A stretch of DNA of 38,885 bases from an uncultured Acetobacteraceae bacterium. Its GTDB lineage: Bacteria; Pseudomonadota; Alphaproteobacteria; Acetobacterales; Acetobacteraceae. The notes beneath the pieces were generated by a model. It was given only the letters and a program-made list of their open reading frames with translations, ran no database searches and was not told where the DNA came from. Shown piece after piece: positions 8,546-28,244 of the stretch (positions are counted from its first letter, which is position 1; each line of letters starts with the position of its first letter). The DNA is taken from positions 1 to 38,885 of the forward strand of contig CAIXEA010000188.1 in NCBI GenBank assembly GCA_903918315.1, given 5' to 3'. Both the position numbers and the translations under genes were made by a program.

Positions 8546-8559
8546 TGACCGGCCTTCCA

Positions 8560-8597: not shown

Positions 8598-8723
8598 TAA
8601 ACGATTGTTTAATCGCGTGATTCACGGCTCCGGTGATTCCACCTCCGCCGATCACGCTCTAAATGATTGTTTAATCGCGTGATTCACGGCTCCGGTGATT
8701 CCACCTCCGCCGATCACGCTCTA
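8594..8723. repeat. 62-bp tandem duplication (two copies plus 6 bp) carrying a structured element
   Basis: Copy 1 (8594-8655) and copy 2 (8656-8717) differ at a single base (C/T at the ninth position), and a third copy is started (GCTCTA, 8718-8723). Each unit holds a 43-nt imperfect palindrome (8615-8657 and 8677-8719) with stem GCGTGAT/ATCACGC, a TCA bulge, stem CGGC/GCCG and an inner GGTG/CACC hairpin. Copies of the same element with different stem sequences occur at 26580-26607 and 28188-28230. The last base triplet of the array is also the TAG stop of the minus-strand gene. Confidence 0.9.
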
Positions 8724-10067
8724 TCGTTTTCGCCAATCCGCGGGGATCGCCGCGGCCGCGGGCAGACCGGTTGCCATGGATCGGAAATAGGGTCTCTTGG
8801 CGTTCTTCAGCGCCTCCACCCGTCGGACATATTCAGAGAGACTGACCGACATCGCAATGATGTACCAGACCATTGGTACGAACGCGATGCCGACGAACGC
8901 GCCGGCTGTCAGGAAGACCATGATCGCGCTCTGAATCGCATTCGCCAGATCGCTGCACCACAGCATGTTGGGAATGGCTTTCGTGACCCGTTCCACCGTG
9001 CGCATCTTCAGGATAACCAGCAGCATACAGCCATGGTACATGGCTAATCCCGGCCAACCGAGCTCCCCCAGGACTTCGAAATGGCTGCTGTGAAACGCCC
9101 GTCCAAACTGGATGGTCCCGTCGGTCAGTTCGATATGGTTGACGAGGAAGGAATTGAACGAACCGCCGAACGGGTGCGTCAAAGCGAAATCCAGGGTCCA
9201 CCGCCACACGGCCAACCGAATCATGGCTGAGGAATCGCTCTGATAATCACCGACCGTCTACATCCGTTGCAGATAGCTGGCCGATGTCATGTACAAGACG
9301 ACCGTTGCCATGACCAAGAGCACAAAGCCCAAGGCCGCTTTGTGCTTCGACTTGGCGAACATGAAGAGTCCAAGGGTTACCAGTCCGATCAATGCACTCC
9401 GCTCAAACGTGCCCAAAGCCGTGACCAGAGCCAGACCCGCCAGCACCAGGAATCCCGGCGTCGTGAACTTGGTTTTCGGCAATAGCGTATTGTGCTTGGC
9501 CAAAAACAGCGCGAGTGGCACGGCCATCAGACAAACCGTCGAGAGCTGCCCCCCTTCACCAAGACCCGAGTTTCCGTTGACCAAACCGAGGTTAACGCCA
9601 TACCCGCCCCCGGAGATCAGGGTTTTCAGCCCGAACGGCACGAAGTTGGCAGCGAGGGAGACGACATAGATTTGCACGAAGGACTCGATTTGCACCTTCG
9701 AGCGTATCACCCAGGGCAGAAATGCCGCGAATGCCATCGCCTTGAATGCCCAATCCCATTTGGCCCAGGCGGAGGTCGGGGAAACGGCCCATATCAGCGT
9801 GAGCGACGCCCAAATCGCAATCAGTATCTGAAGCAGATTGACGCTTGTCAGGTTCGGACGATCACGGTGGTCCTGCAGGACATAGAAGATGACCGCGGCC
9901 GCCCCCATGATTAAGGCGACGGGTGCGTCATTCAGGATGATGAAGGCAATATATTGCGGCTGGAACAGGTCGACCCAGACATAGCCAAGCGCCAGGATAA
10001 ACGGGGCCGAAAGCCCACATGCCAGGAAAAACAGGTAGATCGCTGTCAGCCATAGGCTACGTAGCAC
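8721..10067 (-). pseudogene. O-antigen ligase / exosortase-type O-glycosylation ligase, cut by an in-frame TAG
   Basis: Translated as one frame this is about 448 residues of a polytopic membrane protein resembling the Wzy_C/O-antigen ligase superfamily, particularly the putative O-glycosylation ligases found beside exosortase/PEP-CTERM loci. The N-terminal part (269 residues) has eight or more hydrophobic segments and the FERSALIGL motif. The C-terminal part contains SDSSAMIRLAVWRW, a periplasmic loop with HSSHFEVLGELGWPG, and further membrane segments. The two parts are in the same frame and separated only by TAG at 9258-9260, after LQRM and before TVGDYQ. No frameshift is needed. The GTG start at 10067 has AGGA 9 nt upstream. 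By eye, the gene is less GC-rich than its neighbours, which may indicate transfer. It may be a recent pseudogene or a sequencing error. Confidence 0.8.
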
Positions 10068-10096
10068 GATAAGGCATCCTGCTGCTGGTCAATCCA

Positions 10097-10291
10097 TCAA
10101 CCCCGCCGGTTCCGCCAGGGAACGGCGCTCACCTGTGGTGCAGACCGGGGGTTCGAGTCCGGTCTCGGCTGTTTGGTCTCAGCCGTCGCGCCTGGTTCGA
10201 ACCAGGGGGCGGTTCGATCCAAATACAGGGCCCGGATCAGCACGAGGCTGATCACGATGGAGCTGAACATGATCCCAAAAAGATCGAGCAT
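10097..10291 (-). CDS. Small putative membrane protein
   Basis: A 64-residue reading frame, not recognised. Residues about 5-23 (GIMFSSIVISLVLIRAL) form a hydrophobic helix followed by YLDRTAPWFEP and a polar, Pro/Arg-rich tail of doubtful significance. It lies between mtnP (106 bp downstream of its stop) and the O-antigen-ligase-like gene (29 bp upstream of it) on the same strand. No clear ribosome-binding site precedes the ATG, and the frame stays open upstream without an ATG, so the start is uncertain. It could be a real single-pass protein or a remnant. Confidence 0.35.
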   Translation of the reverse strand: MLDLFGIMFSSIVISLVLIRALYLDRTAPWFEPGATAETKQPRPDSNPRSAPQVSAVPWRNRRG

Positions 10292-10397
10292 GGCCGCATA
10301 GCCCCATTGTTCGCCGGCCAGCCTGGCCGGGATCAGAGTGTGCCGACTGAATAGACCGGTCTGGCCGCGATGTCGTGACCTTCTTGCCCCAGCCGCT

Positions 10398-11276
10398 TTA
10401 CAAAGCGCCCAGAAGCCGCCCGGCCACGGCGTCCAACCGCGCCACCAGGTTCGGGTCGCGCTTATCCGGGGCCGTGATCAGAGCGTTATCCAAGGCCCGG
10501 TCACAGCCGCATCGGCAGTGCGTCCGGGGCCCGCCCAGGGGCGCAATCACCTCACCCACCAGCGCACGCGCTTTGTCCGCATTTTCCAATAGGACTTTGA
10601 CCACCGCCTCGACCGTCACATGGTCGTGGTCAGGATGCCAGCAATCGAAATCGGTCACCATCGCGACGGTGGCGTAGCAAAGCTCGGCTTCCCGTGCGAG
10701 CTTGGCCTCTGGCATGTTGGTCATGCCGATGACGCTGCATCCCCAGGACCGGTATAGCTCGCTCTCGGCCTTGGTGGAGAATTGCGGGCCCTCCATGACC
10801 ATGTAGGTGCCGCCGCGGGTAACCGGCAAATCCAGCGCGCGTGCGGCTGTCTCCAGCACGTCACCGAGCCGGTTGCAAACCGGATGTGCCATGGAAACAT
10901 GCGCGACCAGGCCGTCGCCGAAGAAGCTTTTTTCGCGGGCGAAGCTGCGGTCGATGAACTGATCCACCACCACGAAATGCCCGGGCGGCAGTTCGGCCTT
11001 CAGGCTGCCGACGGCGGAGAGGGAGATCACATCCGTGACCCCCGACCGCTTCAGCGCATCGATATTCGCGCGATAGTTCAGATGCGTCGGCGAGGTTGGG
11101 TGCCCGCGGCCATGCCGGGGGAGGAACACACATTGGACGCCCGACAGGCGGCCGAACAGCAACTGATCCGACGGTTCCCCCCAGGGGGTCGCGACCCGCC
11201 GCCATTCTTTATCCTCAAGCCCACCGATATCGTACAGGCCGGAGCCGCCGATGATTCCAACGACTGCTTCGGCCAT
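10398..11276 (-). CDS. mtnP: S-methyl-5'-thioadenosine phosphorylase
   Basis: A 292-residue cytoplasmic enzyme that splits methylthioadenosine with phosphate into adenine and methylthioribose-1-phosphate, recycling the by-product of polyamine and homoserine-lactone synthesis. Phosphate-binding motifs are GGSGLY (10-15) and RHGRGH (54-59). Substrate motifs are MEGPQFSTKAE (161-171), MTNMPEA (185-191) and DFDCW (209-213). The length matches the family. It begins 13 bp after the cytochrome b/c1 gene with AAAAGG upstream, so it is probably the distal gene of the petA-fbcH transcript; there is no obvious functional link to respiration. Confidence 0.95.
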   Translation of the reverse strand: MAEAVVGIIGGSGLYDIGGLEDKEWRRVATPWGEPSDQLLFGRLSGVQCVFLPRHGRGHPTSPTHLNYRANIDALKRSGVTDVISLSAVGSLKAELPPGHFVVVDQFIDRSFAREKSFFGDGLVAHVSMAHPVCNRLGDVLETAARALDLPVTRGGTYMVMEGPQFSTKAESELYRSWGCSVIGMTNMPEAKLAREAELCYATVAMVTDFDCWHPDHDHVTVEAVVKVLLENADKARALVGEVIAPLGGPRTHCRCGCDRALDNALITAPDKRDPNLVARLDAVAGRLLGAL

Positions 11277-11289
11277 GTCTCGATACCTT

Positions 11290-13278
11290 TTAGTGGACGG
11301 CAGCCCAGATTTTACGCTTCAGGGCGTAGGTCACGCAGGCCATGAAGCCGAGATACAGGATGACACGGATGCCAAGCTGCTTGCGTTCGGTCTGCTCCGG
11401 ATTGGCAGCCCAGGACAAGAAGGTCACGACATCCCGCGCTTCCTGGTCCAGCGTGTTGGGCGTGCCGTCGGCGTAGGTCACCTGCCCATCCCGCAGCGGT
11501 TGCGGCATGGCGATCTGGTGGCCCGGGAAGTATTTATTGTAGTTCATCCCGTCCTGCATCTTCATCGTCGACGGCGCGTCCGCATACCCCGTCAGGATGG
11601 CATAGACATGGTTCGCGCCATCTTCGCGGGCATTCACCATCAGCGACAGGTCGGGCGGCAGAGCGCCGTTGTTCCGCGCCCGCGCCTGCTTGTCGTTGGC
11701 GAAGGGGGAGCGGAACTGATCAGCCGGTGTGCCGGGCCCTTCCTTGGCCTCACCTTCGTCATTCGTGCCCTGCGGCACGGTGACGGCCGCGGCGATCGCC
11801 TTGATCTGCCCCGGTTCCACACCGATCCCGGCGAGGTCACGGTAATGCAGATACTTCATGGAGTGGCAGTTCGCGCAGACTTCGGAATAGATCTGGAAGC
11901 CGCGCTGGGCGGAGGCCAGGTCAACCGTACCGAACACCCCCGCGAAGCTCCATTTCTGGGCCGGCAGCACGATCTCTTCCTCGGCATGCGCCGGGGACAG
12001 GGATTGCACGCCAAGCAAGGCAGCGACGATCGCGGCGACCGCGACCGAGCGTGCGAGAGCGGCCCGCACAACCGGGTTGCTGATGCTCTCCGGCAGCGGC
12101 AGCGGACGCTCCAGCTTCCCGAGGATCGGCAGCACAACCAGCAGATGGGCGAAGTAGTAGAAGGCGAACAGGCGGCTGAGGATCACCCAGATGCCTTCAG
12201 GCTTGTGCGCGCCGCAGATGCCGAGGCCGACGAAGGTCGCGCACCAGACGAACACCAGGATCCGGAAGATCGGGCGGAAGCGGGCACTGCGGACCTTGGA
12301 CGTATCCAGCCACGGCAGCGCCAGGAGCAGCAGGATGGAGGCGAACATCATGCACACGCCGAGCAGCTTGTTCGGCACCGAGCGCAGGATACCGTAGTAC
12401 GGCAGGAAGTACCACTCCGGCACGATGTCGGCGGGGGTCTGCAGCGGGTTGGCCGGGATGAAGTTGTTGGCATCCCCCAGCAGGTTCGGCGCGAAGCACA
12501 CGAAGCCGGCCCAGATCATCAGGAAGACGCACATCCCGACGCTGTCCTTGATCGTGTAGAACGGGTGGAACGGCACCGTGTCCTGCGGCGACTTCACATC
12601 GATACCCAGCGGGTTGTTGGACCCGGTAATGTGCAGCGCGGCGACGTGCAGGAACACCACACCGACCAGCACGAACGGCATCAGATAATGCAGCGCGAAG
12701 AAGCGGTTGAGCGTGGGATTGTCCACACTGAAGCCACCCCAGAGCAAGGTCACGATCTTCGGCCCGACGACGGGGAAGGCCGAGAACAGGTTGGTGATGA
12801 CGGTCGCGCCCCAATAGGACATCTGACCCCAGGGCAGCACGTAGCCCATGAACGCGGTGGCCATCATCAGCAGCAGGATGATCACACCCAGCATCCACAG
12901 CAGTTCCCGCGGGGCCTTGTAGGACCCGTAATAGAGGCCGCGGAAAATATGGATGTAGGTCACCATGAAGAACATGGACGCACCATTCTGGTGCACGTAG
13001 CGGATCAGCCAGCCAAAGTTGACATCGCGCATGATGTGCTGGACGGAGCCGAAGGCCAGCTCGGTATTGGGCTGGTAGTTCATCGCCAGAAAGATGCCGG
13101 TGACGATCATGAGCACCAGGGTGACCATGGCCAACGCGCCAAAATTCCAGAAATAGTTGAAGTTCTTCGGAGTCGGGAAAACCCCGTACTCCTTCTGCAT
13201 CATCGTGAAGATGGGCAGACGGGAATCAACCCAGTTGATCACGGGGTTGGCGAATTCGCTTTTGTGCAGGCCGGCCAT
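11290..13278 (-). CDS. fbcH: Cytochrome b/c1 fusion protein of the bc1 complex
   Basis: A single 662-residue frame encodes cytochrome b (about 1-395) joined to cytochrome c1 (about 433-662). Heme b ligand pairs are H96/H110 and H197/H211, each 14 residues apart, and the quinol-site motif is PEWYFLPYY. The junction (about 400-432) is a typical signal peptide ending SPAHA before EEE, predicting cleavage after A432. Cytochrome c1 has heme motif C468-A-N-C471-H472, probable Met ligand in AMPQPL, and a C-terminal membrane anchor. Fused precursors cleaved by signal peptidase are known from Bradyrhizobium fbcH. The start ATG at 13278 has AGGGAA upstream. It lies 32 bp downstream of petA, in the usual order. 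Confidence 0.95.
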
Positions 13279-13310
13279 ATCGGGTTCCCTTGGGGCGCGC
13301 AGCGGCTGGA

Positions 13311-13874
13311 TCAGCCGATCTTGATCTTGCTGTCGGATTCGAAAGCGTAGGGCGGTACGGCGAGATTCGTCGGCGCCGGCCCTTTGCGGATACGACCGGA
13401 GGTATCGTACTGGCTGCCGTGGCAGGGGCAGAACCATCCGCCCCACTCACCGCGCACGTCGGTCGCTTTGTTACCCAGCGGAATGCAGCCGAGATGGGTG
13501 CAGATGCCGATGAGCACCATCCAGGTTTCATGACCAGGCTTGGTGCGGGCGGCGTCGCTTTGCGGGTCGTTCAACTCGCTCGGCTTGGCATCCTGCGCGG
13601 CTTTCACCTCTTCCGGGGTGCGGTGGCGCACGAAAATCGGCTTACCCTGCCAAGAGACCACGATGCCCTGGCCAGCGGCGATCGGCGCCAGATCAACTTC
13701 CACCGAAGACAGTGCGAGCACGTCTTTGGCTGGGTTCATCGAGCTGACCAGCGGCCAGGCAATGCCGGCGCCTAGCAGCGCGGCGCTGGCGCCAGCAAGC
13801 AATTCGAGCATGTCGCGCTTGCTGGGGTCCGCGGGGTGACCATGGGTATCGGTGCTGGCGGTCGAATGTGCCAT
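13311..13874 (-). CDS. petA: Ubiquinol-cytochrome c reductase Rieske iron-sulfur subunit
   Basis: A 187-residue [2Fe-2S] subunit of the bc1 complex that passes electrons from ubiquinol to cytochrome c1. Cluster ligands are C125-T-H127-L-G-C130 and C149-P-C151-H152-G-S. A membrane anchor spans about residues 23-45. The preceding twin-arginine-type motif reads SKRDMLELL, with Lys-Arg (K19-R20) instead of Arg-Arg, a variant tolerated in some Tat substrates. It is the first gene of the petA-fbcH-mtnP operon. The promoter must lie in the 234-bp divergent region shared with hemF, which contains a 7-bp hairpin at 13890-13906 in the presumed leader. Confidence 0.97.
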
Positions 13875-14108
13875 CTTCCCCTCTTGCTCCGCCCGGTCGC
13901 CGGGCGGTCCTGTCCAGTTTGGGCCAGACGCGACACGCGGCTAGCCCCGGGCAGACCGGTTGGCCGGCCCGCGAATGAAAAAACGTGAACCGGATCACCC
14001 GGCCCGTGGTTGGGCATGTTCTAAAGCGCGCAAGCGCCCCTCGCAACACACCACTCCCACTCACGATCAACGTGGGGTACCCTGCCTTAGCCCTTGGAAC
14101 AAGTCTCT

Positions 14109-15008
14109 ATGTCCACCAAATCATCCGAATCTCACGTACCCGTGCCGCATGTGGCGCTTAAAGATCATGCGCGTGCCTGGTTTGAGGCCTTGCGCGACCG
14201 GTTATGCGCCGCGTTTGAGGCCATTGAGGATGCGCAAACCGGGGAAGCCGCGCCGGCGGGACGCTTCGAGCGCTCCGCCTGGCAACGCCCAACCGAGGAC
14301 GGCAGCGATGGCGGCGGCGGAGTCATGAGCGTGATGCGGGGCCGGGTCTTCGAAAAGGTGGGGGTCAATGTCTCCACCGTGCAAGGCACATTCAGCCCCG
14401 AATTTCGGGCCCAGATCCCCGGCGCGGCGGAGGACCCGCGATTCTGGGCGAGCGGCATCAGCCTGGTGGCGCATATGCGCAGCCCACGCGTGCCGGCGGC
14501 GCATTTCAACACCCGCATGCTGGTGACCACACAGGGTTGGTTCGGCGGCGGCGGCGACCTGACACCGATGCGACTCGATGCACCGGAGTCGGTGGAAGAC
14601 GCCGCCCGCTTCCACGCCGCGTTCAAGGACGCCTGTGACGCGCATGATCCGTCGTACTACCCGGACTTCAAAGCCTGGTGCGACCGCTATTTCTTCCTGC
14701 CCCATCGCAATGAACCACGCGGCCTGGGCGGCATTTTCTTCGATCGCCTCGACACCGGGGACGTGGACAAGGATTTCGCCTTCGTCCGCGACGTGGGGGA
14801 GGCTTTTTTGAACGCCTATCCCGCCATCATCCGCCGCCGCATGGCCGAACCATGGACGGCCGAGGAACGCGAGCACCAGTTGATCCGGCGCGGGCGATAC
14901 GTGGAATTCAACCTCATCCACGACCGCGGCACGCTGTTCGGGCTGAAGACCGGGGGCAATGTGGAGGCGATTCTCATGAGCCTGCCGCCGGAGGTGAAAT
15001 GGGCCTGA
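14109..15008 (+). CDS. hemF: Oxygen-dependent coproporphyrinogen III oxidase
   Basis: A 299-residue cytoplasmic heme-biosynthesis enzyme that uses O2 to convert coproporphyrinogen III to protoporphyrinogen IX. Family signatures are [20 protein letters not shown], the GGGGDLTPM motif, DYYFLPHR-like [20 protein letters not shown] and [20 protein letters not shown] near the C-terminus. A TTG five codons upstream is in frame, but the ATG at 14109 is preferred. It is divergent from the bc1 operon, so both respiration and heme supply could be regulated from the same intergenic region. An intrinsic terminator follows. Confidence 0.97.
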
Positions 15009-15013
15009 AAGCC

Positions 15014-15036
15014 CGGCTGTTTGTTCGGCCGTTTTT
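15014..15036 (+). terminator. Intrinsic terminator after hemF
   Basis: CGGCTG (15014-15019) pairs with CGGCCG (15026-15031), with one G-U wobble, around a 6-nt loop, and five T residues follow directly (15032-15036). It begins 6 nt after the hemF stop, so hemF is probably monocistronic. Confidence 0.75.
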
Positions 15037-15112
15037 ATTGCCAATCGACAAACCACCTGCGTAAATTTCTCGACCGCCGGGGATAGCCGGCGGTGAACAG
15101 GGGCGTAACGCG

Positions 15113-15859
15113 GTGAAAGCTCTCCTCTTTTGTATGGCATTATTGGCCGCGCCGCTCTCCGCGCTGGCATCGCCGTCCGGAGCACTGACCCATGTCGTTA
15201 TCGATAATACCGGTTGCCCGCTCCTGGGGCCCAGCACCCTCACCTGCATGGTTGGGAATGGCAGCGCCACGCTGAACGACCCCGGCCATTCCTTTGCCTC
15301 CGCCCAGGCCGATCTGGCGGCGGGTTCGCTGGCGATCGCGACCGCGACGGATTCGCTGTTCGGACATTACGCCTCAGCGCTTGCCGAAATCTGGGACACC
15401 TTCGCGTTTTCCGGTGTCACCGCGGGCGAGAAGGCAACTGTGACCATATCCGGGACCGCCGCCGTCGCCGGCTCCTACGCTCTGCAGTATTTCGCGGATC
15501 TGGTGCCGGCGGGGAACATCTCCGCGCCGAATGGCGGCAATGGGGAGCTTGTGACGCTGCTCGCCAATGGCGCCTGGAGTATTTCCATGCAATTCCCGAT
15601 CGCCAACGGCACGCTCGATAACGGGGCCTATACGCTGAACGCTGGCCTGTATGGCACGAGCGACCTCTGCGGCAATGATGGTTGCCCGGGAAGCATCGCG
15701 GCCGCGGCGACGGTCACATTCACGCTTCCCACGGATGTGACCCTGACCAGCGATCAAGGTTTTGGCACGGCCGCGCCGGAACCGGGCGCGTTGGCCTTAG
15801 GGGCCCTGCCGCTGCTGCTGGTGTTCCAACGGCGTCGGCCCCGGCTTATCCGCCGGTAA
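15113..15859 (+). CDS. Exported protein with PEP-CTERM-type sorting signal
   Basis: A 248-residue secreted protein. Residues 1-19 are a signal peptide ending ALA. The body is rich in Ala, Gly, Ser and Thr with beta-strand character and contains two cysteine-rich spots ([17 protein letters not shown]). The C-terminus has the tripartite sorting signal: P222-E223-P224, a hydrophobic stretch ([14 protein letters not shown]) and an arginine-rich tail ([10 protein letters not shown]). Such tails are recognised by exosortases, which anchor or release proteins during exopolysaccharide formation. No exosortase is in this window. The start is GTG with only a weak GGGG upstream. It converges with moaA and overlaps its end by 14 nt. 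Confidence 0.75.
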
Positions 15860-16844
15860 CGCTCATGTGCCGGGCCACCGCCGGCTTGTCGTGGCGGCGG
15901 TCGATGATGAAATCATGGCCTTTGGGTTTGCGGGCAATCGCCTCGCGGATCGCCGCGTCCAGCCCGTCATCGCTGATACCCTCCCGCAGCAGACCGCGGA
16001 AATCGGCCGCGTCGTCCTGACCGAGACACATATAAAGGGTACCGGTGCAGGTCAGCCGCACGCGGTTGCAGCTTTCGCAGAAATTATGGGTCATCGGGGT
16101 GATGAACCCGACCCGTCGCCCGGTTTCCTTGACGGTGAAATAGCGGGCGGGGCCGCCGGTCTGGTAGTCGGTATCCTCCAGCGTCCAGCGCTTGCGTAAC
16201 CGCCCGCGCACGATCGACAGCGGCAGGTACTGGTCGGTGCGGTCGCCGCTGATATCACCCATCGGCATCGTCTCGATCAGACAGAGGTCGAAACCGTGCT
16301 CACCGCACCAGGCGAGCATGCCGTCGAAATCGTCCTCGTTCACGCCCTTCATCGCCACGGCGTTGATTTTGACGGCGAGCCCGGCGGCCTTGGCGGCGAA
16401 AATGCCGTCCAGCGTCGGCTCGATCTTGCCCCAGCGGGTCAGGTCGTTGAATTTCACGGGGTCGAGCGTATCGAGGGACACATTCACCCGCCGCACGCCC
16501 GCGGCGAAGAGCGTTGCCGCGTGCTTGCTGAGCTGGGTGCCATTGGTCGTGACGGTGAGTTCCCGCAGCCCCTGCCCTGGCTCGGCGCCAATCCGCGCGC
16601 CCAGCTTGCCGAAGAGCTGCATGATATCGCGGCGGACCAGGGGCTCACCGCCGGTGATGCGGATTTTCGTTGTGCCCAACCGGATGAACGCGGCGCAAAG
16701 CCGATCCAGTTCCTCAAGCGTGAGCAGGTCACGCTTGGGCAGGAAGGTCATATCCTCCGCCATGCAATAGACACAGCGAAGGTCACAGCGGTCCGTGACC
16801 GAAACGCGGAGGTAGGTGATGGCGCGGCCGAATGGGTCGATCAT
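15846..16844 (-). CDS. moaA: GTP 3',8-cyclase (molybdenum cofactor biosynthesis protein A)
   Basis: A 332-residue radical SAM enzyme that rearranges GTP to 3',8-cyclo-GTP, the first step of molybdopterin synthesis. The radical SAM cluster is C20-x3-C24-x2-C27 in [12 protein letters not shown]. The second C-terminal cluster is C256-x2-C259-x13-C273. The SAM motif ITGGEPL is present, and the protein ends with the conserved Gly-Gly that enters the active site. No other mo genes are nearby. The 168-bp region upstream, shared with chpT, shows no molybdenum-cofactor riboswitch that could be recognised by eye. Confidence 0.97.
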
Positions 16845-17012
16845 AACTGTCTTCTACTCCAGGTCCCCATCATGTGCGCCATCCCTTCCGGGGTTCAAGG
16901 GCATCACAAGCACCGCTGATCTGCATCACAATACCGGGATCACTCGCAATTCGGATACAGATCGCTATGGTGCCGCGGGTCTGGGATCAGCCCCCCATCG
17001 AATGAGGCGAAG

Positions 17013-20271: not shown

Positions 20272-20282
20272 GGAGCCTCGCT

Positions 20283-20756: not shown

Positions 20757-20761
20757 TCGGC

Positions 20762-21127
20762 ATGGCCGGAACTTGCCTCGTCGTTGATGACAGCCGGGTC
20801 GTGCGTAAGGTCGCCCGCCGCATTCTGGAAGCGCATGGCTTCGCGGTGACGGAGGCGGAGGATGGGCAGCGGGCGCTCGAGGCCTGCCGTCTCGCGCTGC
20901 CCGACTGCGTGTTACTGGACTGGAACATGCCGGTGATGGACGGGATCACATTTCTTCGCCATTTGCGTCAGGAATTCGGTCCCACTGACCCCCCCGTGGT
21001 TTTCTGTACCACGGAAAATGACCTGTCGCATATCGAACAGGCCATCGCCGCCGGCGCCCAGGAATACATCATGAAACCCTTCGATGATGAGATCCTGTCC
21101 GGCAAGCTCAACCAGGTGGGATTGTGA
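20762..21127 (+). CDS. cheY: Chemotaxis response regulator CheY
   Basis: A 121-residue single-domain receiver. The acidic pocket is D9-D10, the acceptor aspartate D53 in LLDWNMPVMDG, the switch threonine T83 and the lysine K105 in MKPFD. It probably carries the CheA signal to the flagellar motor. The ATG at 20762 is preferred over an upstream TTG; GGGGAGGG lies about 9 nt upstream, inside the interrupted end of cheW. Its stop overlaps the cheB start. Confidence 0.95.
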   Translation: MAGTCLVVDDSRVVRKVARRILEAHGFAVTEAEDGQRALEACRLALPDCVLLDWNMPVMDGITFLRHLRQEFGPTDPPVVFCTTENDLSHIEQAIAAGAQEYIMKPFDDEILSGKLNQVGL

Positions 21128-22176
21128 GTACAACACTGGCGCCAGCCCGCGTGATGGTCTGCGATGATTCGGCCGTCATTCGGGGTGCCATCACGCGGAT
21201 GCTGGAAGCTGACCCGGGGGTCCGGGTGGTCGCTAAAGCCGCCAATGGGCAACAGGCGGTCGAGGCCTTGCAGCGCATGGCCATCGATGTCGTCGTTCTG
21301 GACATCGAAATGCCGGTGATGGACGGCATGCAGGCGCTGCCCTTGCTCCTTCGGACCGACCCGGGATTGAAGGTCGTCATGGCGTCGACCCTGACCACAC
21401 GGGGGGCCGAAATTGCCTTACGCGCCTTGCGTTTAGGGGCAGCGGACTATCTGCCGAAACCGTCGTCCACCGGCCTGACACCGGATGACCGATTCCAACG
21501 CGAATTGCTGGAGAAGGTGAAAGGTCTCGCCCGCCAGCGCCGGCGGGGACCGCGGCCCACCGCCACAGTCCCCTTACGCCCGGTTTCCCTGTTGCCGGCG
21601 CGATTGCTGGCGATCGGAAGTTCCACGGGCGGGCCCCAGGCCTTGTTTACTTTGGTGCAAGGACTTGGCCGGCAGATCGACGTCCCTGTTGTTTTGACCC
21701 AACATATGCCGCCGACATTCACGCCGATCCTGGCAGACCACATCAACCGGCTGGACGGGCTGGGATGCGCGGAAGCCAAGGATGGTGAACCGCTGCTCAA
21801 AGGCCGAATCTACCTGGCCCCCGGTGATCGGCATCTGATGGTCGAGGGCAGGCCTGGCGCGCTCCGTGCGCGGCTGACCATGGACCCGCCAGAGAATTTC
21901 TGCCGGCCTTCGGTCGATCCGATGCTGCGCAGCGCCACGTCCGCCTGCGAGGGGCGGGTGCTGGTCGCGATGCTGACGGGGATGGGCCATGATGGTCTGG
22001 CGGGCACAAGGCAGGTGGTTGACGCCGGCGGCACCGCGATCGCGCAGGATGAGGCGACCAGCGTGGTCTGGGGCATGCCCGGTGCCATCGCCCAGGCCGG
22101 CTTATGTCACGCTGTGCTGCCGCTGCCGGCGCTGGCGGGTAAACTGCGCGAGATGCTGAGAGGGACGCGGGCATGA
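21124..22176 (+). CDS. cheB: Chemotaxis-specific protein-glutamate methylesterase/deamidase CheB
   Basis: A 350-residue adaptation enzyme with an N-terminal receiver (D14-D15, acceptor D60 in VLDIEMPVMDG, K in LPKPSS) and a C-terminal methylesterase domain. The catalytic residues are visible: serine in AIGSSTGGPQAL, histidine in TQHMPPTF and aspartate in GMGHDGLAG. It removes methyl groups from chemoreceptors when phosphorylated by CheA. The start is a GTG that overlaps the cheY stop (GTGA), and its own stop overlaps cheR (ATGA), a tightly coupled set. Confidence 0.97.
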   Translation: MSTTLAPARVMVCDDSAVIRGAITRMLEADPGVRVVAKAANGQQAVEALQRMAIDVVVLDIEMPVMDGMQALPLLLRTDPGLKVVMASTLTTRGAEIALRALRLGAADYLPKPSSTGLTPDDRFQRELLEKVKGLARQRRRGPRPTATVPLRPVSLLPARLLAIGSSTGGPQALFTLVQGLGRQIDVPVVLTQHMPPTFTPILADHINRLDGLGCAEAKDGEPLLKGRIYLAPGDRHLMVEGRPGALRARLTMDPPENFCRPSVDPMLRSATSACEGRVLVAMLTGMGHDGLAGTRQVVDAGGTAIAQDEATSVVWGMPGAIAQAGLCHAVLPLPALAGKLREMLRGTRA

Positions 22177-23000
22177 CGCCGGCAACATTTTCGGCTTTTG
22201 CCGCGCTGCTGAAATCTCGCTCCGGGCTCGTGATCGGTCCGGACAAAACCTATCTGCTGGAAACACGTCTCGCGCCGCTGCTCAAACGCGAAAAACTACC
22301 GGATCTCGCCGCATTGGCTGATGCCATTAACAAACCCGGAGCCGACGCATTGGCCCGGGAGATCACAGAGGCGATGACCACCAACGAAAGCTTCTTCTTT
22401 CGGGACGACAAGCCGTTCATTCATTTTCGCACGCACGCGCTGCCGCGCCTCCTCGCGGCCCGCCCGGCTGGTACGCCCTTGCGCCTTTGGTCTGCCGCGG
22501 CGTCGTCGGGACAGGAAGCCTATTCCCTGGCCATGATCCTCGCTGACAGTAAAGCGATGCTCGGCGGGCGCCCGGTCGAAATCATCGGCACCGACATCGC
22601 ACGCGACCAGCTTAACCGCGCCCGGGACGGGCTCTACACCCAGTTCGAGGTGCAGCGTGGCCTGCCGGTGCAGATGCTTGTGAAGTATTTTCGCAAGGAA
22701 GATGCCAACTGGCGGATATCGGAGTCCATCCGCTCCATGGTCCGGTTCAAGGAGTTCAATCTCCTCAACGACCCTCGGGTGCTGGGCCGGTTCGATGTCG
22801 TATTTTGCAGAAATGTCCTGATCTATTTCGATCCATCGACCAAGAACCGCGTGTTGAACGGGATCGCGGCCCAGATGCCGGCGGATGGCGCGCTGTATCT
22901 TGGCGGCGCGGAAACGGTTCTGGGAATCACTGACCGCTTCGCCCCCATGCCGGGGGAGCGTGGCGTGTATACCCCCATAAAAACCCGCGTGGCCGCATGA
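22173..23000 (+). CDS. cheR: Chemotaxis protein methyltransferase CheR
   Basis: A 275-residue SAM-dependent glutamate methyltransferase acting on chemoreceptors. The N-terminal helical domain (about 1-75) is followed by the Rossmann-like domain: ITEAMTTNESFFFRD, LRLWSAAASSGQEAYSLAM (SAM site), IIGTDIARDQLNRAR and FDVVFCRNVLIYFD. Length fits the family. It is the last gene of the che operon; no chemoreceptor gene is in the window. Confidence 0.97.
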   Translation: MTPATFSAFAALLKSRSGLVIGPDKTYLLETRLAPLLKREKLPDLAALADAINKPGADALAREITEAMTTNESFFFRDDKPFIHFRTHALPRLLAARPAGTPLRLWSAAASSGQEAYSLAMILADSKAMLGGRPVEIIGTDIARDQLNRARDGLYTQFEVQRGLPVQMLVKYFRKEDANWRISESIRSMVRFKEFNLLNDPRVLGRFDVVFCRNVLIYFDPSTKNRVLNGIAAQMPADGALYLGGAETVLGITDRFAPMPGERGVYTPIKTRVAA

Positions 23001-23055
23001 TGGGTTTTGCCATTTCGCCTGCCTTATGGCAGGTGTGGTCACAAAGGGGTGCCCC

Positions 23056-23319
23056 ATGCACAAATTGCACATCACTCTCCCAGACACATTGAAACTGTTC
23101 ATGGATGAGCAAATCGCCAAAGGGCGTTATGGTGATTACACGGACTATATATGCGACCTTATTCGGGCGGATGAAGAACGTCTCGCCGACTTACAGCGGG
23201 ACGCGCTTGCCGCCGAAGCCCCGCCCGATGACCGCAGCCCCACGGTACTCGGGGACTGGCGGGCCATCCGGCAGGAAGCCGTGGCGCAGGCGAAACGGGC
23301 CCGTGACGCTCGCGATTGA
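23056..23319 (+). CDS. ParD-like antitoxin, without adjacent toxin
   Basis: An 87-residue protein beginning with a ribbon-helix-helix motif (MHKLHITLPDTLKLFMDEQI, then GRYGDYTDYICDLIRADEERL) and an acidic C-terminal region, as in ParD/CC2985-type antitoxins that bind DNA and neutralise ParE toxins. The ATG at 23056 is preferred over one at 23026 because AAGGGG lies 7 nt upstream and the protein then starts at the first beta strand. No parE follows: the next gene is on the opposite strand, with only 6 bp between stops. It may be an orphan antitoxin or a stand-alone repressor. Confidence 0.75.
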   Translation: MHKLHITLPDTLKLFMDEQIAKGRYGDYTDYICDLIRADEERLADLQRDALAAEAPPDDRSPTVLGDWRAIRQEAVAQAKRARDARD

Positions 23320-23325
23320 AGACGT

Positions 23326-24450
23326 TCAGCTAAATCCGCCGCGGGCCGCCACCGGCCACAGGCACTCAACCCGCCCGGCACGAACCCCCACATACCAATC
23401 GAAGCGATCCACGGTGGGATCGCAATGCCCAGGCACCAGACGCAATTTTTCACCCAGTTTGGGTGCCACCGTCTCACTGCCGACATCCAGTTTGCCATGT
23501 TCGTCGGACGCGCTGACGTAGTGCACATCCGGCCGCTGCCAGACCGTTGGCATCCCAGAGTCGATCGATACGGCCTTGTGTCCGGCATCCAGCACGGCAA
23601 CGCCTGGCCGTGACGCGCTCATGACAGTGGACAATACGAACAACGCGTGACGGAACGTGCTCACGGGGGCGCCGCTCTCATCGAGATTGCGGGCATAATC
23701 GGCATCCATGAAAATATAGCTGCCGGCTTGCATCTCGGTATAAACGCCGGATGCGGCCTCAATTTGGAAGGAACCGGTCCCGGCGCCGCCAATGATGGGG
23801 CATTCCAGGCCTTGCTGGCGCAACTGCTCCTGGGTGCGGCGCGACGCATCGATCGCGGCGCCGATCAAAGCCCGGCGTTCGGTGATTGTGCGCTTGTGCT
23901 GCGCGCTGCCCTGATAGGCTTGCAACCCGCCGAAGGTCAGATGCTTCTGATCCGCGATGCGTTGGGCCAAGGCCACGGCCTCTGGGCCGGCCGCCACGCC
24001 GGCCCGTCCGGCGCCGACATCGATCTCCACCAGGACCGACATGCGCACATCCGCGTCCGCGGCCGCTGCTTCGATGGCCTCGATCTGCGCCGCATCGTCC
24101 ACGCAGACCGCCACTTTCGCGATACGCGCCAGGGCGCAAAGCCGCGCGAGTTTGGCCGGACCCACGACCTCATTGCTGACCAGGATGTCGTTGATTCCAC
24201 CCCAGGCGAGGATTTCGGCCTCCCCCACCTTCTGCACACACTGCCCGATCGCGCCGCGTGCCATCTGCAATCGGGCAATGACCGGGGATTTATGGGTTTT
24301 GGCATGCGCCCGCAGCTTCACCCCGGTCGGCCGCAACAAAGCCGCCATATGATCGAGGTTATACTCAAAGGCGTCGAGGTCGATGATCAACGCGGGGGTG
24401 TCGATCTCGTCTTCACGCATACCAGGCTGGGCGGGCGGTGACTGCAACAT
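23326..24450 (-). CDS. D-threonine aldolase-like PLP enzyme (DSD1 family)
   Basis: A 374-residue fold-type III PLP enzyme of the D-threonine / 3-hydroxy-D-aspartate aldolase and D-serine dehydratase group. The N-terminal alanine-racemase-like barrel starts IDTPALIIDLDAFEYN. The PLP lysine is probably K51 in RAHAKTHKSP. IGGAGTGSF is the phosphate-binding loop region. The C-terminal metal-site motif is PGHCDPTVDRFD. Members cleave D-3-hydroxy amino acids to glycine and an aldehyde, or deaminate them. The ATG at 24450 has AAGGAT about 8 nt upstream. It is divergent from the Old Yellow Enzyme gene with 91 bp between. The exact substrate is unknown. Confidence 0.88.
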   Translation of the reverse strand: MLQSPPAQPGMREDEIDTPALIIDLDAFEYNLDHMAALLRPTGVKLRAHAKTHKSPVIARLQMARGAIGQCVQKVGEAEILAWGGINDILVSNEVVGPAKLARLCALARIAKVAVCVDDAAQIEAIEAAAADADVRMSVLVEIDVGAGRAGVAAGPEAVALAQRIADQKHLTFGGLQAYQGSAQHKRTITERRALIGAAIDASRRTQEQLRQQGLECPIIGGAGTGSFQIEAASGVYTEMQAGSYIFMDADYARNLDESGAPVSTFRHALFVLSTVMSASRPGVAVLDAGHKAVSIDSGMPTVWQRPDVHYVSASDEHGKLDVGSETVAPKLGEKLRLVPGHCDPTVDRFDWYVGVRAGRVECLWPVAARGGFS

Positions 24451-24541
24451 GGGTCGATCCTTCGTAATCTCTCCGCCCCAGTAGCCGAACGCGACGAAGC
24501 GGGGTAGGGAGCGATCAAACAATGCCTCGGAGGGCCGCCGC

Positions 24542-25711
24542 GTGTCCAAACCCAAACTGTTCCAGCCGCTGACCATCCGCGGCGTGACCTTGAAGAACCG
24601 CATCGTGCTGGCGCCGATGCACCAATATGCGTCCAATCAGGGCTTCGCCACGGATTGGCATCTGATGAACGCCGGAAAGTTCGCCGCCGGCGGCTGCGGG
24701 CTGGTGATGGTCGAGTCCACGAAGGTCGAGCGGCGGGGCTGCGGCACTGTCGGCGATCTCGGCCTGTGGAAGGATGAATTCATCCCCGGCCTGAAGCGCA
24801 TCACCGACTTCATCAAAGCGCAAGGCGCCGTCTCCGCCATCCAGATCGGGCATTCCGGGCGCAAGGCCCGCCTGACCCGGCCCTGGGAAGGCCAGCAGCC
24901 GCAAACCCCGGATCATCCGGAGATGTTCGACTGGGACGGCTGGGAACTGGTTGCCCCCAGCGCCATCGCGCATAGCGACCGCATGCCGACGCCACGCGCG
25001 TTCTCCCGCGATGAGATCCCGGAGGTCGTGGCCCATTGGGGTGAGGCCGCGGCGCGCGCCAACAAGGCCGGGTTTGAGATCCTGGAAATCCATGGCGCGC
25101 ATGGCTACCTGGTGCACCAGTTCCTCTCCCCGGTCTCGAACCGGCGCAATGACGAATATGGCGGCTCGGACGCCAACCGGATGCGGTTCGCGCTGGAAGT
25201 GGCGGAGTGCGTGCGCGCCAACTGGCCGGACGAAAAGCCGCTGTTCATGCGCCTGTCCTGTGAGGACGACGCCGGCTGGGGGCCGGAACAGAGCGTGGCG
25301 CTGTCGAAGGAGCTGAAGCTACGCGGGATCGACGTGATTGATTGCTCGTCGGGCGGAATGCTGGAACGCTCGCCCATGGACGGCGTGCGGTCGCAGAAAT
25401 ACGGCTATCAGGTGCCCTATGCCGAGCAGATCCGGGCTGAGGCGGAGATGATGACCATGGCGGTCGGGCATATCGTCCATGCGGATCAGGCGGAGGCCAT
25501 CCTGCAGGAGGGCAAGGCCGATCTGATCGCGATCGCGCGCGAGCTCCTTTACAATCCGAACTGGGCAATGGATGCGGCGCAGAAGTTGGGGGCAGATCCG
25601 GACTTCACCCAGGTGCCCCCGGCTTACGCGTATTGGCTGGGAAAGCGGGCGAAGTCCAAGTTCGAGGGCGTGCCGTCCACATTCCGGCAGGGAATGCTGG
25701 CCGCCGAATAA
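24542..25711 (+). CDS. NADH:flavin oxidoreductase, Old Yellow Enzyme family
   Basis: A 389-residue FMN-dependent TIM-barrel oxidoreductase. Motifs are LKNRIVLAPMHQYAS at the N-terminus, QIGHSGRKA around H104, HGAHGYL (184-190) leading to NRRNDEYGGS, and the C-terminal ARELLYNPNW segment. Family members reduce activated C=C bonds of enones, or open or demethylate other substrates. The start is GTG at 24542 with GGAGGG about 7 nt upstream. A strong hairpin follows the stop. With the SDR and hydroxyacid dehydrogenase downstream it suggests saturation and oxidation steps on a cyclic or unsaturated acid, which is inference. Confidence 0.92.
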   Translation: MSKPKLFQPLTIRGVTLKNRIVLAPMHQYASNQGFATDWHLMNAGKFAAGGCGLVMVESTKVERRGCGTVGDLGLWKDEFIPGLKRITDFIKAQGAVSAIQIGHSGRKARLTRPWEGQQPQTPDHPEMFDWDGWELVAPSAIAHSDRMPTPRAFSRDEIPEVVAHWGEAAARANKAGFEILEIHGAHGYLVHQFLSPVSNRRNDEYGGSDANRMRFALEVAECVRANWPDEKPLFMRLSCEDDAGWGPEQSVALSKELKLRGIDVIDCSSGGMLERSPMDGVRSQKYGYQVPYAEQIRAEAEMMTMAVGHIVHADQAEAILQEGKADLIAIARELLYNPNWAMDAAQKLGADPDFTQVPPAYAYWLGKRAKSKFEGVPSTFRQGMLAAE

Positions 25712-25726
25712 GGACCAGAGACCAGA

Positions 25727-25752
25727 AAGCCCCGCGGCGATTAGCGGGGCTT
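25727..25752 (+). terminator. Hairpin after the Old Yellow Enzyme gene
   Basis: AAGCCCCGC (25727-25735) pairs perfectly with GCGGGGCTT (25744-25752) across an 8-nt loop, 15 nt after the stop. There are only two T residues at the 3' side as part of the stem, but placement and GC content fit an intrinsic terminator. The SDR gene 57 bp further on may thus need its own promoter. Confidence 0.7.
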
Positions 25753-25809
25753 GCTCTGCCCTGGGCAAGGCCGTTGAATATCCCGACGTCCAACCATAAG
25801 GAAACGTCC

Positions 25810-26568
25810 ATGCCGCAACTCGCGGGGAAAATCGCCTGGGTCACCGGTGCCGGCAGCGGCATTGGAGAGGCGGCGGCTTTGGCGCTGGCCGCCGAGGGCG
25901 CGACCGTCATCCTGACCGGCCGCACGCCCGAGAAGCTGGACAATGTCGCGCGCCGGATCAATCAGACCGGCACCGCGCATGTCGCACCCGCTGATCTGAC
26001 CGATAAGGCGCAGGTGGCGGCGGTCGGGCGCTTTATAAAAGAGAGGTTCAACCGCCTCGATATCCTGGTCAACAACGCCGGGGTGAACATTGTCGACCGC
26101 CACTGGGACAAACTGACCCCCGATGGCATTGACACGCTGATCCAGGGCAATCTGGTGGGCGCGCTCTATTGCGTGACCGTCGCCCTCCCTTTCATGCGGG
26201 CGCAGCAGGATGGATTGATCATCCACACGGCATCGATGGCCGGGCGCTTTATTGGCGGGGTGAGCGGCCCGATCTATGTCACCGCGAAGCATGGCATCGT
26301 GGCGATGAGCCATGGATTGAACATGCAGGAATGCATCAACGGCATCCGTTCCACGGTGTTCCTGCCGGGGGAAGTCGCGACGCCGATCCTGGATAAGCGG
26401 CCGAATCCGGTGCCGCCGGAGGTGCGGGCGCGGATGGTGCAGCCGGCCGATTGTGGCGACCTGATCCGCTACATCGCCTGCCTGCCCAAGCATGTCGTGA
26501 TGAACGAGGTGCATCTGGCCCCGACGCATAATCGCGGCTATGTCGCCAGCCTGACACGCACGCTCTAA
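25810..26568 (+). CDS. Short-chain dehydrogenase/reductase
   Basis: A 252-residue classical SDR. The nucleotide-binding motif is TGAGSGIG (12-19) with R38 nearby suggesting NADP(H) preference, NNAG at 88-91, and the catalytic S142, Y156 and K160 in YVTAK. The open frame extends upstream to 25633, but the ATG at 25810 has AAGGAAA 6 nt upstream and starts with the first beta strand. The substrate is a hydroxy or keto compound that cannot be specified. The stop lies next to a compact copy of the structured repeat. Confidence 0.92.
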   Translation: MPQLAGKIAWVTGAGSGIGEAAALALAAEGATVILTGRTPEKLDNVARRINQTGTAHVAPADLTDKAQVAAVGRFIKERFNRLDILVNNAGVNIVDRHWDKLTPDGIDTLIQGNLVGALYCVTVALPFMRAQQDGLIIHTASMAGRFIGGVSGPIYVTAKHGIVAMSHGLNMQECINGIRSTVFLPGEVATPILDKRPNPVPPEVRARMVQPADCGDLIRYIACLPKHVVMNEVHLAPTHNRGYVASLTRTL

Positions 26569-26579
26569 ATTTTTTGATC

Positions 26580-26607
26580 GCGGGATTCAGACCTCCGGTC
26601 ATCCCGC
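26580..26607. repeat. Compact copy of the structured repeat
   Basis: Stem GCGGGAT/ATCCCGC (26580-26586 and 26601-26607), 3-nt bulge TCA, stem GACC/GGTC and a TCC loop. It is identical to the copy at 28188-28230 (read on the minus strand) over flanks of 19 and 17 bases, except that 15 bp between two ACCT direct repeats are missing. It fills the gap between the SDR stop and the next gene's AAGGA ribosome-binding site. Confidence 0.85.
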
Positions 26608-26624
26608 TTTAAGGACAACGGATC

Positions 26625-27605
26625 ATGGCCACCAACAAACGCAAGGTGATGCTGCCCCACGTGATGGGCAAGCAAGGTGTTGATATCATCCGCGCCCGTG
26701 ATGATATCGAGCTGGTGATGTATCCCGCCGGCATCGCGCAAGCCGATCTGCTGCCGCAACTGGCGGATTGCGCGGGAATCGCACTGTCGGCGACGCCGTA
26801 CAAGCAGACGGAGATGGACGCCTCCCCCGCGATGCAGGTCGTGGCGCGGATTGGCGTGGGCTTCGATGCGGTCGAGGTCCCAGCTTTGACGGCGCGCGGG
26901 GTGCCGCTGATGGTGGTTGGCATCGCCAACTCGACCTCCGTCGCCGAACAGGCATTCCACATGATGATCGCGCTGGCCAAACGCAACCATCAGATGGACG
27001 CGCTGGTGAAGGGCGGCAAATGGAATGATCGCCACCTGTCGCTGCCCATGGAAATCTCCGGCAAGACCGTGCTGATCGTCGGTTTCGGCCGCATCGGCAC
27101 CCGCACCGCGCCGCGTTGTGCCGCCTTCGACATGAACGTGCTGATCTACGATCCCTATGTCGATCCAGCCAAGATCAGCAATGCCGGCTTCACCCAGGTC
27201 ACCGACCTGGACGCTGTGCTGCCAGGCGTGGATTTCCTGTGCATCCATTGCCCGAAGAACCCGGAAACCGTGGGCCTGTTCGACGCCCGCCGCCTGGGGC
27301 TGCTGAAAAAGGGCGCCTTCGTGGTCAGCACGGCCCGCGGCGGCATCATCGCGGAAGCGCCATTGTATGACGCGCTGACCTCCGGCCACATCGCCGGCGC
27401 TGGTCTGGATGTGTTCGAATCAGAACCGACGCCGAACGATAACCGGCTGCTGACGCTGGAGAATGTGATCGCCTCCCCGCATATGGCGGGTATCACGACG
27501 GAAGCGGTGGCGGCGATGGCGGTGATGACGGCGCGCAATATTCTCAGTGTGCTGGACGGCACCCCGATGAAGGAAAACGCGGTCAACCCCGAAGTATTCG
27601 GATAA
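26625..27605 (+). CDS. D-isomer-specific 2-hydroxyacid dehydrogenase
   Basis: A 326-residue NAD-dependent dehydrogenase that interconverts 2-keto and D-2-hydroxy acids. The dinucleotide motif is GFGRIG (153-158), and the catalytic Arg-Glu-His set is R238 in STARGG, E267 in FESEP and H286 in SPHMAG. It is related to phosphoglycerate dehydrogenase-like enzymes but lacks a C-terminal ACT domain. AAGGA is about 9 nt before the ATG, directly after the structured repeat. It ends 5 bp before the AhpD-like gene, so the two are likely co-translated. Confidence 0.93.
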   Translation: MATNKRKVMLPHVMGKQGVDIIRARDDIELVMYPAGIAQADLLPQLADCAGIALSATPYKQTEMDASPAMQVVARIGVGFDAVEVPALTARGVPLMVVGIANSTSVAEQAFHMMIALAKRNHQMDALVKGGKWNDRHLSLPMEISGKTVLIVGFGRIGTRTAPRCAAFDMNVLIYDPYVDPAKISNAGFTQVTDLDAVLPGVDFLCIHCPKNPETVGLFDARRLGLLKKGAFVVSTARGGIIAEAPLYDALTSGHIAGAGLDVFESEPTPNDNRLLTLENVIASPHMAGITTEAVAAMAVMTARNILSVLDGTPMKENAVNPEVFG

Positions 27606-27610
27606 AGACG

Positions 27611-28186
27611 ATGCCCCAGCCGGACCATATCTCAAAGCTTGGCGTCCCCGATGCGGCGACGCTGGATGAGGACCTCCAGATCCTCTGGCGGAAATGCGTG
27701 GAAAAGCTGGGCTTCGTGCCGCATGTTTTCAGCACCTACAGCCTGAAGCCGCAACGGTTGCGGAATTTCATGGCGATGTACAACGACATCATGCTCTCCC
27801 CCTCCGGCCTGTCGAAGCTGGAGCGGGAGATGGTCGCGGTGGTCGTTTCCTCGGCCAATCGTTGCTATTATTGCCTGGTCGCGCATGGCGCGGCGGTGCG
27901 GCAATTATCCGGCGATCCGGAACTCGGTGAGATGATGGCGTTGAATTACCGGGTCGCGGCCCTGGATGCGCGGCAGCGGGCGATGCTGGACTACGCCTGG
28001 AAGCTGACGGCAACGCCGCACGATATCGGCGATGCCGATCGCGAGGGGTTGCGGGCTGTCGGGCTCAGCAATGAGGATCTGTTCGACCTGACCGAAACGG
28101 TGGCGTTCTTTAATTTATCGAACCGGATGGCGCATGGGTCGGATATGATGCCGAACCGGGAATATCACCGCGCCGTTCGAGCCTAA
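27611..28186 (+). CDS. AhpD/carboxymuconolactone decarboxylase-like peroxidase-related protein
   Basis: A 191-residue all-helical protein of the AhpD-like superfamily. The redox or proton-relay motif is C85-Y-Y-C88-L-V-A-H92, preceded by LEREMVAVVVSSANR. Some members are alkylhydroperoxidases and others carboxymuconolactone decarboxylases; the CxxC-x3-H motif favours the peroxidase-related branch. It follows the hydroxyacid dehydrogenase by 5 bp. Its TAA stop merges into the structured repeat at 28188-28230. Confidence 0.85.
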   Translation: MPQPDHISKLGVPDAATLDEDLQILWRKCVEKLGFVPHVFSTYSLKPQRLRNFMAMYNDIMLSPSGLSKLEREMVAVVVSSANRCYYCLVAHGAAVRQLSGDPELGEMMALNYRVAALDARQRAMLDYAWKLTATPHDIGDADREGLRAVGLSNEDLFDLTETVAFFNLSNRMAHGSDMMPNREYHRAVRA

Positions 28187-28187
28187 A

Positions 28188-28230
28188 GCGGGATGACCGG
28201 AGGTGGAATCACCGAAGGTCTGAATCCCGC
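28188..28230. repeat. Structured repeat between convergent genes
   Basis: On the minus strand this reads stem GCGGGAT, bulge TCA, stem GACC, inner hairpin GGTG-ATTC-CACC, then GGTC and ATCCCGC. It is 43 nt, the same length as each tandem copy at 8615-8657 and 8677-8719. It lies between the AhpD-like gene and the convergent dioxygenase beta-subunit gene, so it may end transcripts from both sides. Confidence 0.9.
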
Positions 28231-28244
28231 GATCAGGCAAGAGG

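Follow-up and report, generated by a model that had tools for sequence, protein, structure and literature searches.

A family of bulged palindromes in an Acetobacteraceae genome with the probable character of IS630-mobilised miniature transposable elements

Two described repeat families come closest to the element treated here: RUP is the closest in mechanism and CIR the closest in anatomy. RUP of Streptococcus pneumoniae is a miniature inverted-repeat transposable element (MITE) related to the insertion sequence (IS) IS630-Spn1, and in the portions of the two sources available it is presented as a 107-bp intergenic unit with a TA target, ends like those of IS630-family ISs and an over-representation between convergent genes (PMC2229807, PMC3049150). 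CIR of Caulobacter and Brucella, a CcrM-associated alphaproteobacterial repeat of about 110 bp, has two hairpin arms with a linker, GANTC in the loop and TA termini; the available part of the 2007 review leaves its mobility mechanism open (PMC2229807). The family described here resembles both in these traits, with a loop GANTC in part of its copies, and three of its loci lie at 8.6, 26.58 and 28.2 kb of a 38,885-nucleotide stretch from an uncultured Acetobacteraceae bacterium (contig CAIXEA010000188.1, number 188 of the 241 contigs of assembly GCA_903918315.1), called the window below. With a probability of roughly 0.85 these repeats are MITEs of CIR-like anatomy mobilised by IS630-type transposases, where transposition itself is deduced from IS630-type ends, a TA target within YTAR, empty sites in relatives and a patchy distribution. 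The same evidence gives good support to the non-autonomous mobile palindrome that an earlier note on this DNA had named as one of two possibilities, next to a new terminator or mRNA-stability element.

The family also differs from the described systems. RUP is a simple unit as far as the cited text goes, whereas in the present family both arms are palindromes, one of them with a near-constant TCA bulge, the stems vary deeply but in a compensated fashion and many ends fall on stop codons. For CIR, which was compared by description only, the accessible text names no IS relative, whereas several ends of the present family match IS630. The BOX repeat of S. pneumoniae forms the extreme 3' end, including the stop codon, of 36 annotated genes and is thus alike in supplying a gene with its stop, but its ISSpn2-like ends, sequence and architecture are different in the part of the source available (PMC3049150). 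A literature search that left subscription journals mostly uncovered, with several sources seen in part, found no description of the present family or of any IS630 MITE from Acetobacteraceae.

Direct reading of the sequence found the four copies of the earlier note in the window as described (8615-8657, 8677-8719, 26580-26607 and, on the minus strand, 28188-28230), with a 7-bp stem, a TCA bulge and a 4-bp stem in common and the inner hairpin GGTGATTCCACC in three of them. The compensated changes between the 8.6-kb and 28.2-kb copies were likewise found: over the 43-nt arm the two differ at nine positions, eight in four compensated pairs and one in a loop. Two loci lie between predicted convergent genes and the third between co-directional genes, as had been stated (gene calls are those of our own codon-usage predictor). 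The 43-nt hairpin is real, but it is one arm of a larger unit. The parts of this unit are given below, where R1 is a covariance model of the bulged arm with 51 positions and 15 pairs.

8558 to 8599, plus strand: left arm of an A-type element, a near-perfect palindrome with an 18-bp stem (8559-8576 with 8581-8598), from the fold and the family line-up; its starting TA reads CA and its right TA is at 8598-8599.
8600 to 8614, plus strand: linker AACGATTGTTTAATC, from sequence reading and the line-up of copies.
8615 to 8661, plus strand: right (bulged) arm of the A subfamily, first copy, ending in TCTA (earlier 8615-8657); R1 match at 8611-8661, E 3.8e-17.
8662 to 8723, plus strand: tandem 62-bp repeat of linker and right arm (earlier 8677-8719); R1 match at 8673-8723, start-to-start spacing 62; its last CTA (8721-8723) is the TAG stop of a predicted minus-strand gene at 8721-9215.
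26566 to 26611, plus strand: single-arm element of the B subfamily without inner hairpin; R1 match at 26576-26611 and empty site in relatives; TA at both ends (26566-26567, 26610-26611), the left one within the TAA stop of the gene at 25774-26568.
28184 to 28247, minus strand: single-arm element of the B subfamily (earlier 28188-28230); R1 match at 28184-28234 minus, gene prediction and fold; TA 28184-28185 lies in the TAA stop of the gene at 27611-28186 and TA 28246-28247 in the TAA stop of the minus-strand gene at 28245-28712.

The 8.6-kb locus is therefore a near-perfect palindrome (8559-8598) with two tandem bulged arms, and stop codons are occupied by both ends of the 28.2-kb element, one end of the 26.58-kb element and one of the 8.6-kb array. 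In the 26.58-kb copy the inner hairpin between two CTCCGGT direct repeats is gone, as a deletion in a full copy between these two repeats would leave it; the genome has comparable short forms at C22:88321 and C119:32877. No Rfam RNA family matched the window above its gathering score, and a tRNA or tmRNA identity of the repeats was rejected.

A search of the 5.04-Mb genome with R1, one of the checks proposed in the earlier note, gave at least 147 copies at E<=0.01, a lower bound as 150 candidates were scored. All copy counts given here for the own genome, for relatives and for the order-wide draw are to be taken as lower bounds. A degenerate 22-base pattern with up to two mismatches had 124 matches compared to none for the reversed pattern. 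The R1 matches, at least 147, form 120 clusters and are short, non-coding and dispersed. For 20 of the 147 copies a contig end is no more than 150 bp away, compared to an expectation of about one (contigs 5, 19, 23, 31, 52, 67, 83, 112, 134, 166, 192, 197, 215 and 241); copies pile up there because arrays of the element break the assembly, and copy numbers are therefore underestimated.

Several subfamilies can be told apart. Full A-type elements measure 104 bp from TA to TA in 20 of 20 script-matched cases and share with CIR the two inverted-repeat arms with a linker and the TA termini. The left palindrome, TAGAGC[A/C]TGTCCGGTGC...GCACCGGACA[T/G]GCTCTA, is followed by a linker such as ACCGATTGTTTG, the bulged arm GCGTGAT-TCA-CGGC...GCCG-ATCACGC and TCTA. 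B-type copies, with stems GACC/GGTC and GGGAT/ATCCC, are often single arms, and some start directly with TAGAGCGGGAT (C156:3992), so that a lone arm can be a TA-started palindrome. The C and D types have the stems CGTTT/AAACG and CGCC/GGCG. Head-to-tail arrays occur as well: among 26 same-strand neighbours within 130 bp, ten are spaced 55 bp and eight 62 bp.

The ends of these elements are like those of IS630-type ISs. DDE_3 was matched in 30 of 33 genomes of the genus (28 over the cut-off), and relatives carry three IS630-type ISs with TA-flanked ends starting with TAGAGC, namely L226 (1060 bp, in genome G026), L227 and L230, each with Y before and R after the TA. The frames of L226 match DDE_3 (8.3e-33) and HTH_28 (1.5e-6). 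In the own genome the IS end seen at the start of contig C208 is present at three contig starts, the interior being unassembled, and is 81% identical to the right end of L226 over 108 nt (E 6.6e-28). The element ends were compared with the IS ends over 22 positions, with 44,967 TA-starting sites from 1.58 Mb around the copies as controls; each element end was scored by its best match among six IS ends whereas the control count refers to that single IS end, a weakness of the comparison. The C-type ends agree at 20 (right) and 18 (left) positions, equalled by none of the controls. The A-right end agrees at 17 (one control), the D-right end at 16 (five controls) and the B-right, second A-left and D-left ends at 15 (10-12 controls).

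In L226, L227 and L230 the transposase is split over two overlapping frames, one with the helix-turn-helix part and one with the DDE part, which suggests that these genes may use programmed frameshifting.

IS630/Tc1-type elements insert at TA and duplicate it; for ISY100 in vitro, the portion of the study available gives this for 34 of 39 products of one set (PMC2170065). The 20 full A elements have Y before the left TA in 20 cases and R after the right TA in 19, and YTAR makes up 6.5% of TA sites. When 18 clusters at the edge of the available sequence and 5 intragenic ones were excluded from the 120, 97 classifiable clusters remained, of which 58 lie between convergent, 37 between co-directional and 2 between divergent genes. 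Among the 872 intergenic gaps of 20 nt or more that served as background, the numbers are 142, 518 and 212, respectively (Fisher p 4e-26 for the convergent enrichment, element-bearing gaps removed).

The placement at gene ends extends to the stop codon itself. For 82 copies an opposite-strand gene ends within 60 nt of the right end, and 40 of these genes end exactly at the terminal position, with 35 TAG, 4 TAA and 1 TGA stops; thus the element supplies the TAG or TAA stop of its convergent neighbour in 39 of 82 copies. Predicted stops genome-wide are 793 TGA, 280 TAG and 277 TAA. A second round of matching accepted only elements with TA at each end (15 kept, 6 dropped); 12 of these 15 had at least one end in a stop codon, compared to 22% of non-coding YTAR sites that are stops, a rough comparison with a background that includes sites made by the element. 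Since the element starts with TA-G and ends with C-TA, an insertion at the TA within TAG or TAA would restore a stop codon on either side and so be tolerated. The enrichment at gene ends thereby gets a simple reason, a YTAR target that overlaps stop codons together with ends that restore them.

Relatives lack the element at two of the window loci. Downstream of the orthologous gene, none of the 26 relatives read has the 8.6-kb element; 11 of them are collinear on both flanks, and R1 has no match there; in G026, the closest relative by identities, the site is empty and both genes lie close together with no array between. At 26.58 kb R1 had no match in 27 relatives. Judged by the empty site in G001 and G026, this copy went into the stop codon, and the window has TA on either side of it; the target duplication of TA is thus seen in one base-level pair of empty and filled sites (26566-26611). 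The 28.2-kb site is occupied in G026 by a different subtype that points the other way, and in G014 by a weak third subtype. A first comparison of stretches from G001 gave few orthologous sites; the copy at C62:28180 of the own genome starts at a stop codon that G001 and G009 have.

At the orthologous sites of C62:28180 and C93:1623, L296 (G009:C89) and L294 (G026:C243) have other, unrelated-looking sequence, which in L296 begins exactly where the upstream gene has its stop codon. Gene ends may serve as repeated landing places for several element families.

The distribution is patchy. R1 has matches in 21 of 32 relatives of the same genus, with at least 3 to at least 100 per carrier genome, and none in the other 11. 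Outside the genus, 26 genomes searched with stricter filters had no match; two belong to the same family and 24 to other families of the class. When 150 genomes were drawn evenly from the order, the family was present in at least 32 of them and in at least 13 of 41 genera, and every carrier belongs to the Acetobacteraceae; named carriers among the matches listed include Acidisphaera, Roseococcus, Roseomonas, Rhodovarius and Rubritepida.

The earlier note had emphasised compensated stem changes, and between subfamilies these are strong. In a shuffle test of covariation, 42 copies from 21 relatives scored 0.398 compared to 0.141 in shuffles, and none of 500 shuffles scored as high. In these copies (40 distinct) 96.6% of the pair cells are standard and 10 of 15 pairs show two-sided changes; the alignment was fitted to the R1 model, and of its 500 shuffles none came as high on four measures while 9 reached the number of further pair types. 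Among 79 distinct copies from the 80 loci listed, out of at least 103, in named alphaproteobacteria, 95.9% are paired versus 82.2% in 300 shuffles (maximum 84%); this set is ungapped and not fitted to R1, its search pattern fixes much of it, and mainly pairs 5-8, 15-17 and 24-31 are informative. Pairs switch freely there, e.g., pair 15-40 is GC or CG in 43 and 34 copies.

Within a subfamily, by contrast, the differences are mostly uncompensated, and compensation is a property between subfamilies. When the right arms of 89 distinct own copies were compared with the consensus sequences of A and B (after omission of 24 distant copies and of 2 lacking the full 51-nt stretch), 61 pairs were broken, 28 were changed on one side and still paired, and 2 were compensated. 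The 34 distinct left arms (44 in total) have 43 broken, 13 one-sided and 9 compensated pairs, where about 0.8 compensated pairs are expected from independent hits, shared descent of some arms still being included. Templated correction of palindromes is a candidate source of the compensation. In the A subfamily paired and unpaired columns have about as many singleton variants per column (0.63 vs 0.62), while in the B subfamily the paired ones have somewhat fewer (0.73 vs 1.00); when all differences are counted, paired columns have fewer in both subfamilies (A 0.030 vs 0.047, B 0.039 vs 0.129). We read this as a structure held by the spreading lineages, with copies that decay after insertion. 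The structure is genuinely conserved, but apparently by the mobile lineages rather than at the single loci.

The unpaired TCA of the right-arm bulge (R1 columns 12-14) is constant in 41 of the 42 relatives' copies though the stems vary. Read with the GAT before it, the bulge contributes to a second GANTC site, GATTC, which is intact in 122 of 145 own copies.

These stems could also belong to a conserved regulatory RNA, i.e., a bidirectional terminator or a stabiliser of mRNA 3' ends that is selected at each locus, with its hairpin between convergent genes. Such an RNA would agree with the strong folds (z -3.65 to -10.3 for six stretches; -10.3 and -9.7 are the two strands of the 105-nt 8.6-kb element, -3.65 to -4.6 single arms), with pairing above that of shuffles in both sets of copies, with the convergent-gene enrichment and with the excess of differences in unpaired B columns. 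However, no terminator-like site, in which a T run directly follows the hairpin, was found inside the element at the three window loci, and intrinsic terminators at these loci were rejected; the lone match to the terminator consensus nearby (26662-26639, minus strand) lies outside the element in the downstream gene. The singletons spare paired columns not at all in A and only somewhat in B, 61 and 28 broken or one-sided pairs stand against 2 compensated ones, and the stop-codon seating and YTAR flanks are already explained by insertion. The absence of the element at 8.6 and 26.58 kb in the relatives read and the mostly uncompensated loss of pairing in young copies argue against a terminator or stability role for the host. 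We consider a regulatory RNA very unlikely, and the corresponding half of the earlier proposal is not supported, given the missing terminator site, the absent copies and recent mutations that spare pairing little. Strong stem compensation in genomic repeats need not mean an RNA function for the host: compensation separates mobile founder lineages while single copies decay mostly without it.

For an IS630-mobilised MITE the following course can be proposed. The basic unit is a bulged palindrome of about 50 bp whose right half resembles an IS630 terminal inverted repeat and whose left half is the bulged reverse complement of it, and the A subfamily is the 104-bp two-arm form of palindrome, linker and bulged palindrome. 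An IS630 transposase would bind the ends, excise or copy the element and insert it at TA, and insertions into the TA of a stop codon would be tolerated, most of all between convergent genes. Compensated stem changes would set apart founder subfamilies whose terminal repeats, palindromic in form, differ from one another; either selection for mobility or a templated palindrome correction would maintain the pairing, and individual inserted copies would then decay.

Several observations weigh against this explanation. DDE_3 has no match in the window's own assembly, where no IS630 transposase but only ends at contig breaks are assembled, and by our criterion the TAGAGC end occurs in only 3 of 30 fetched IS630 loci. 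Three of the ten element ends, the first A-left and both B-left ends, agree with IS ends at only 12-13 of 22 positions, as do 166-436 of the 44,967 controls, and are not distinctive. Among the 40 genes that end at the terminal position, one has a TGA stop. The left TA of the 8.6-kb element is mutated, and the 26.58-kb locus is the only one to give a base-level empty site flanked by TA on both sides; 16 of the 27 relatives without that copy are collinear on both flanks, and most other empty-site alignments are too diverged to be read to the base. Tandem arrays with 55- or 62-bp periods are unexplained by simple TA insertion, and the overall differences in the B subfamily (0.039 paired vs 0.129 unpaired) are what fits decay after insertion least.

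Bulged palindromes located at gene ends in high copy number also recall repetitive extragenic palindromes (REPs), which a Y1 (IS200-like) transposase of the REP-associated type (RAYT) moves as single-stranded DNA, with hairpin and bulge as the recognised structure. The CGTC and GTAG REPs are short high-copy palindromes too, and CGTC REPs predominate in Alphaproteobacteria according to the accessible part of PMC3733652; the constancy of the TCA bulge would suit such recognition. But the ends of the lined-up copies carry neither a GTAG nor a CGTC tag, and Y1_Tnp (PF01797) had no match in the own assembly in a search that was positive in 5 of 14 control genomes. With a TA target in YTAR flanks and IS630-type ends in addition, a RAYT/REP origin has next to no probability, and this identity was rejected on the tag and the transposase.

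The repeats could further be descendants of Caulobacter CIRs that are kept for the control of CcrM methylation (GANTC), with mobility as an incidental trait. The A-type element has the anatomy that the available text gives for CIR (PMC2229807), i.e., two arms and a linker, about 110 bp, GANTC in the terminal loop, TA termini and an intergenic position, and of 145 own copies 122 retain GANTC at the bulge and 104 in the inner loop. In the relatives, however, the inner hairpin has GANTC in only 23 of 42 copies (the bulge reads GATTCA in 35 of 42), and R1 found nothing in the 24 genomes from other families of the class under the stricter filters. Being CIR-like is, moreover, compatible with being an IS630 MITE. 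Such a descent from CIR with retention for methylation control is highly improbable.

A different link to CcrM is suggested by the IS ends. GANTC, which has a frequency of 1.8 per kb, occupies positions 23-27 in two element ends (A-right and B-right) and in all four TAGAGC IS ends on the side of the transposase start (own genome, G026, G022 and G010), and is absent from the first 40 bases of the three far IS ends. The site in the transposase-side end might tie transposase expression to CcrM methylation. On a wider reading, which we offer as speculative and rather unlikely, two-arm GANTC repeats, i.e., the present family and by extension the Caulobacter CIRs, would be IS630-derived, and their movement would be tied to CcrM methylation and to the folded arms. 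Once replication has left GANTC hemimethylated, this state could permit expression of the transposase or cutting of the ends; the bulged hairpin could be read by the transposase or by a host factor, and pairing could be kept by co-evolution with the transposase. Dam sites play such a licensing role for IS10 and Tn5. If this link to CcrM were true, the stop-codon seating would amount to a mobile, self-restoring stop codon. For the two-arm GANTC repeats of Alphaproteobacteria the IS630 type is offered as a concrete transposase.

A further repeat was seen near the start of the window, where positions 78-157 hold a perfect 30-bp inverted pair starting with CGTCATCCCCGGG. This pair is a repeat family separate from the hairpin element and resembles a head-to-head dimer of CGTC-tagged REPs (compare the available part of PMC3733652).

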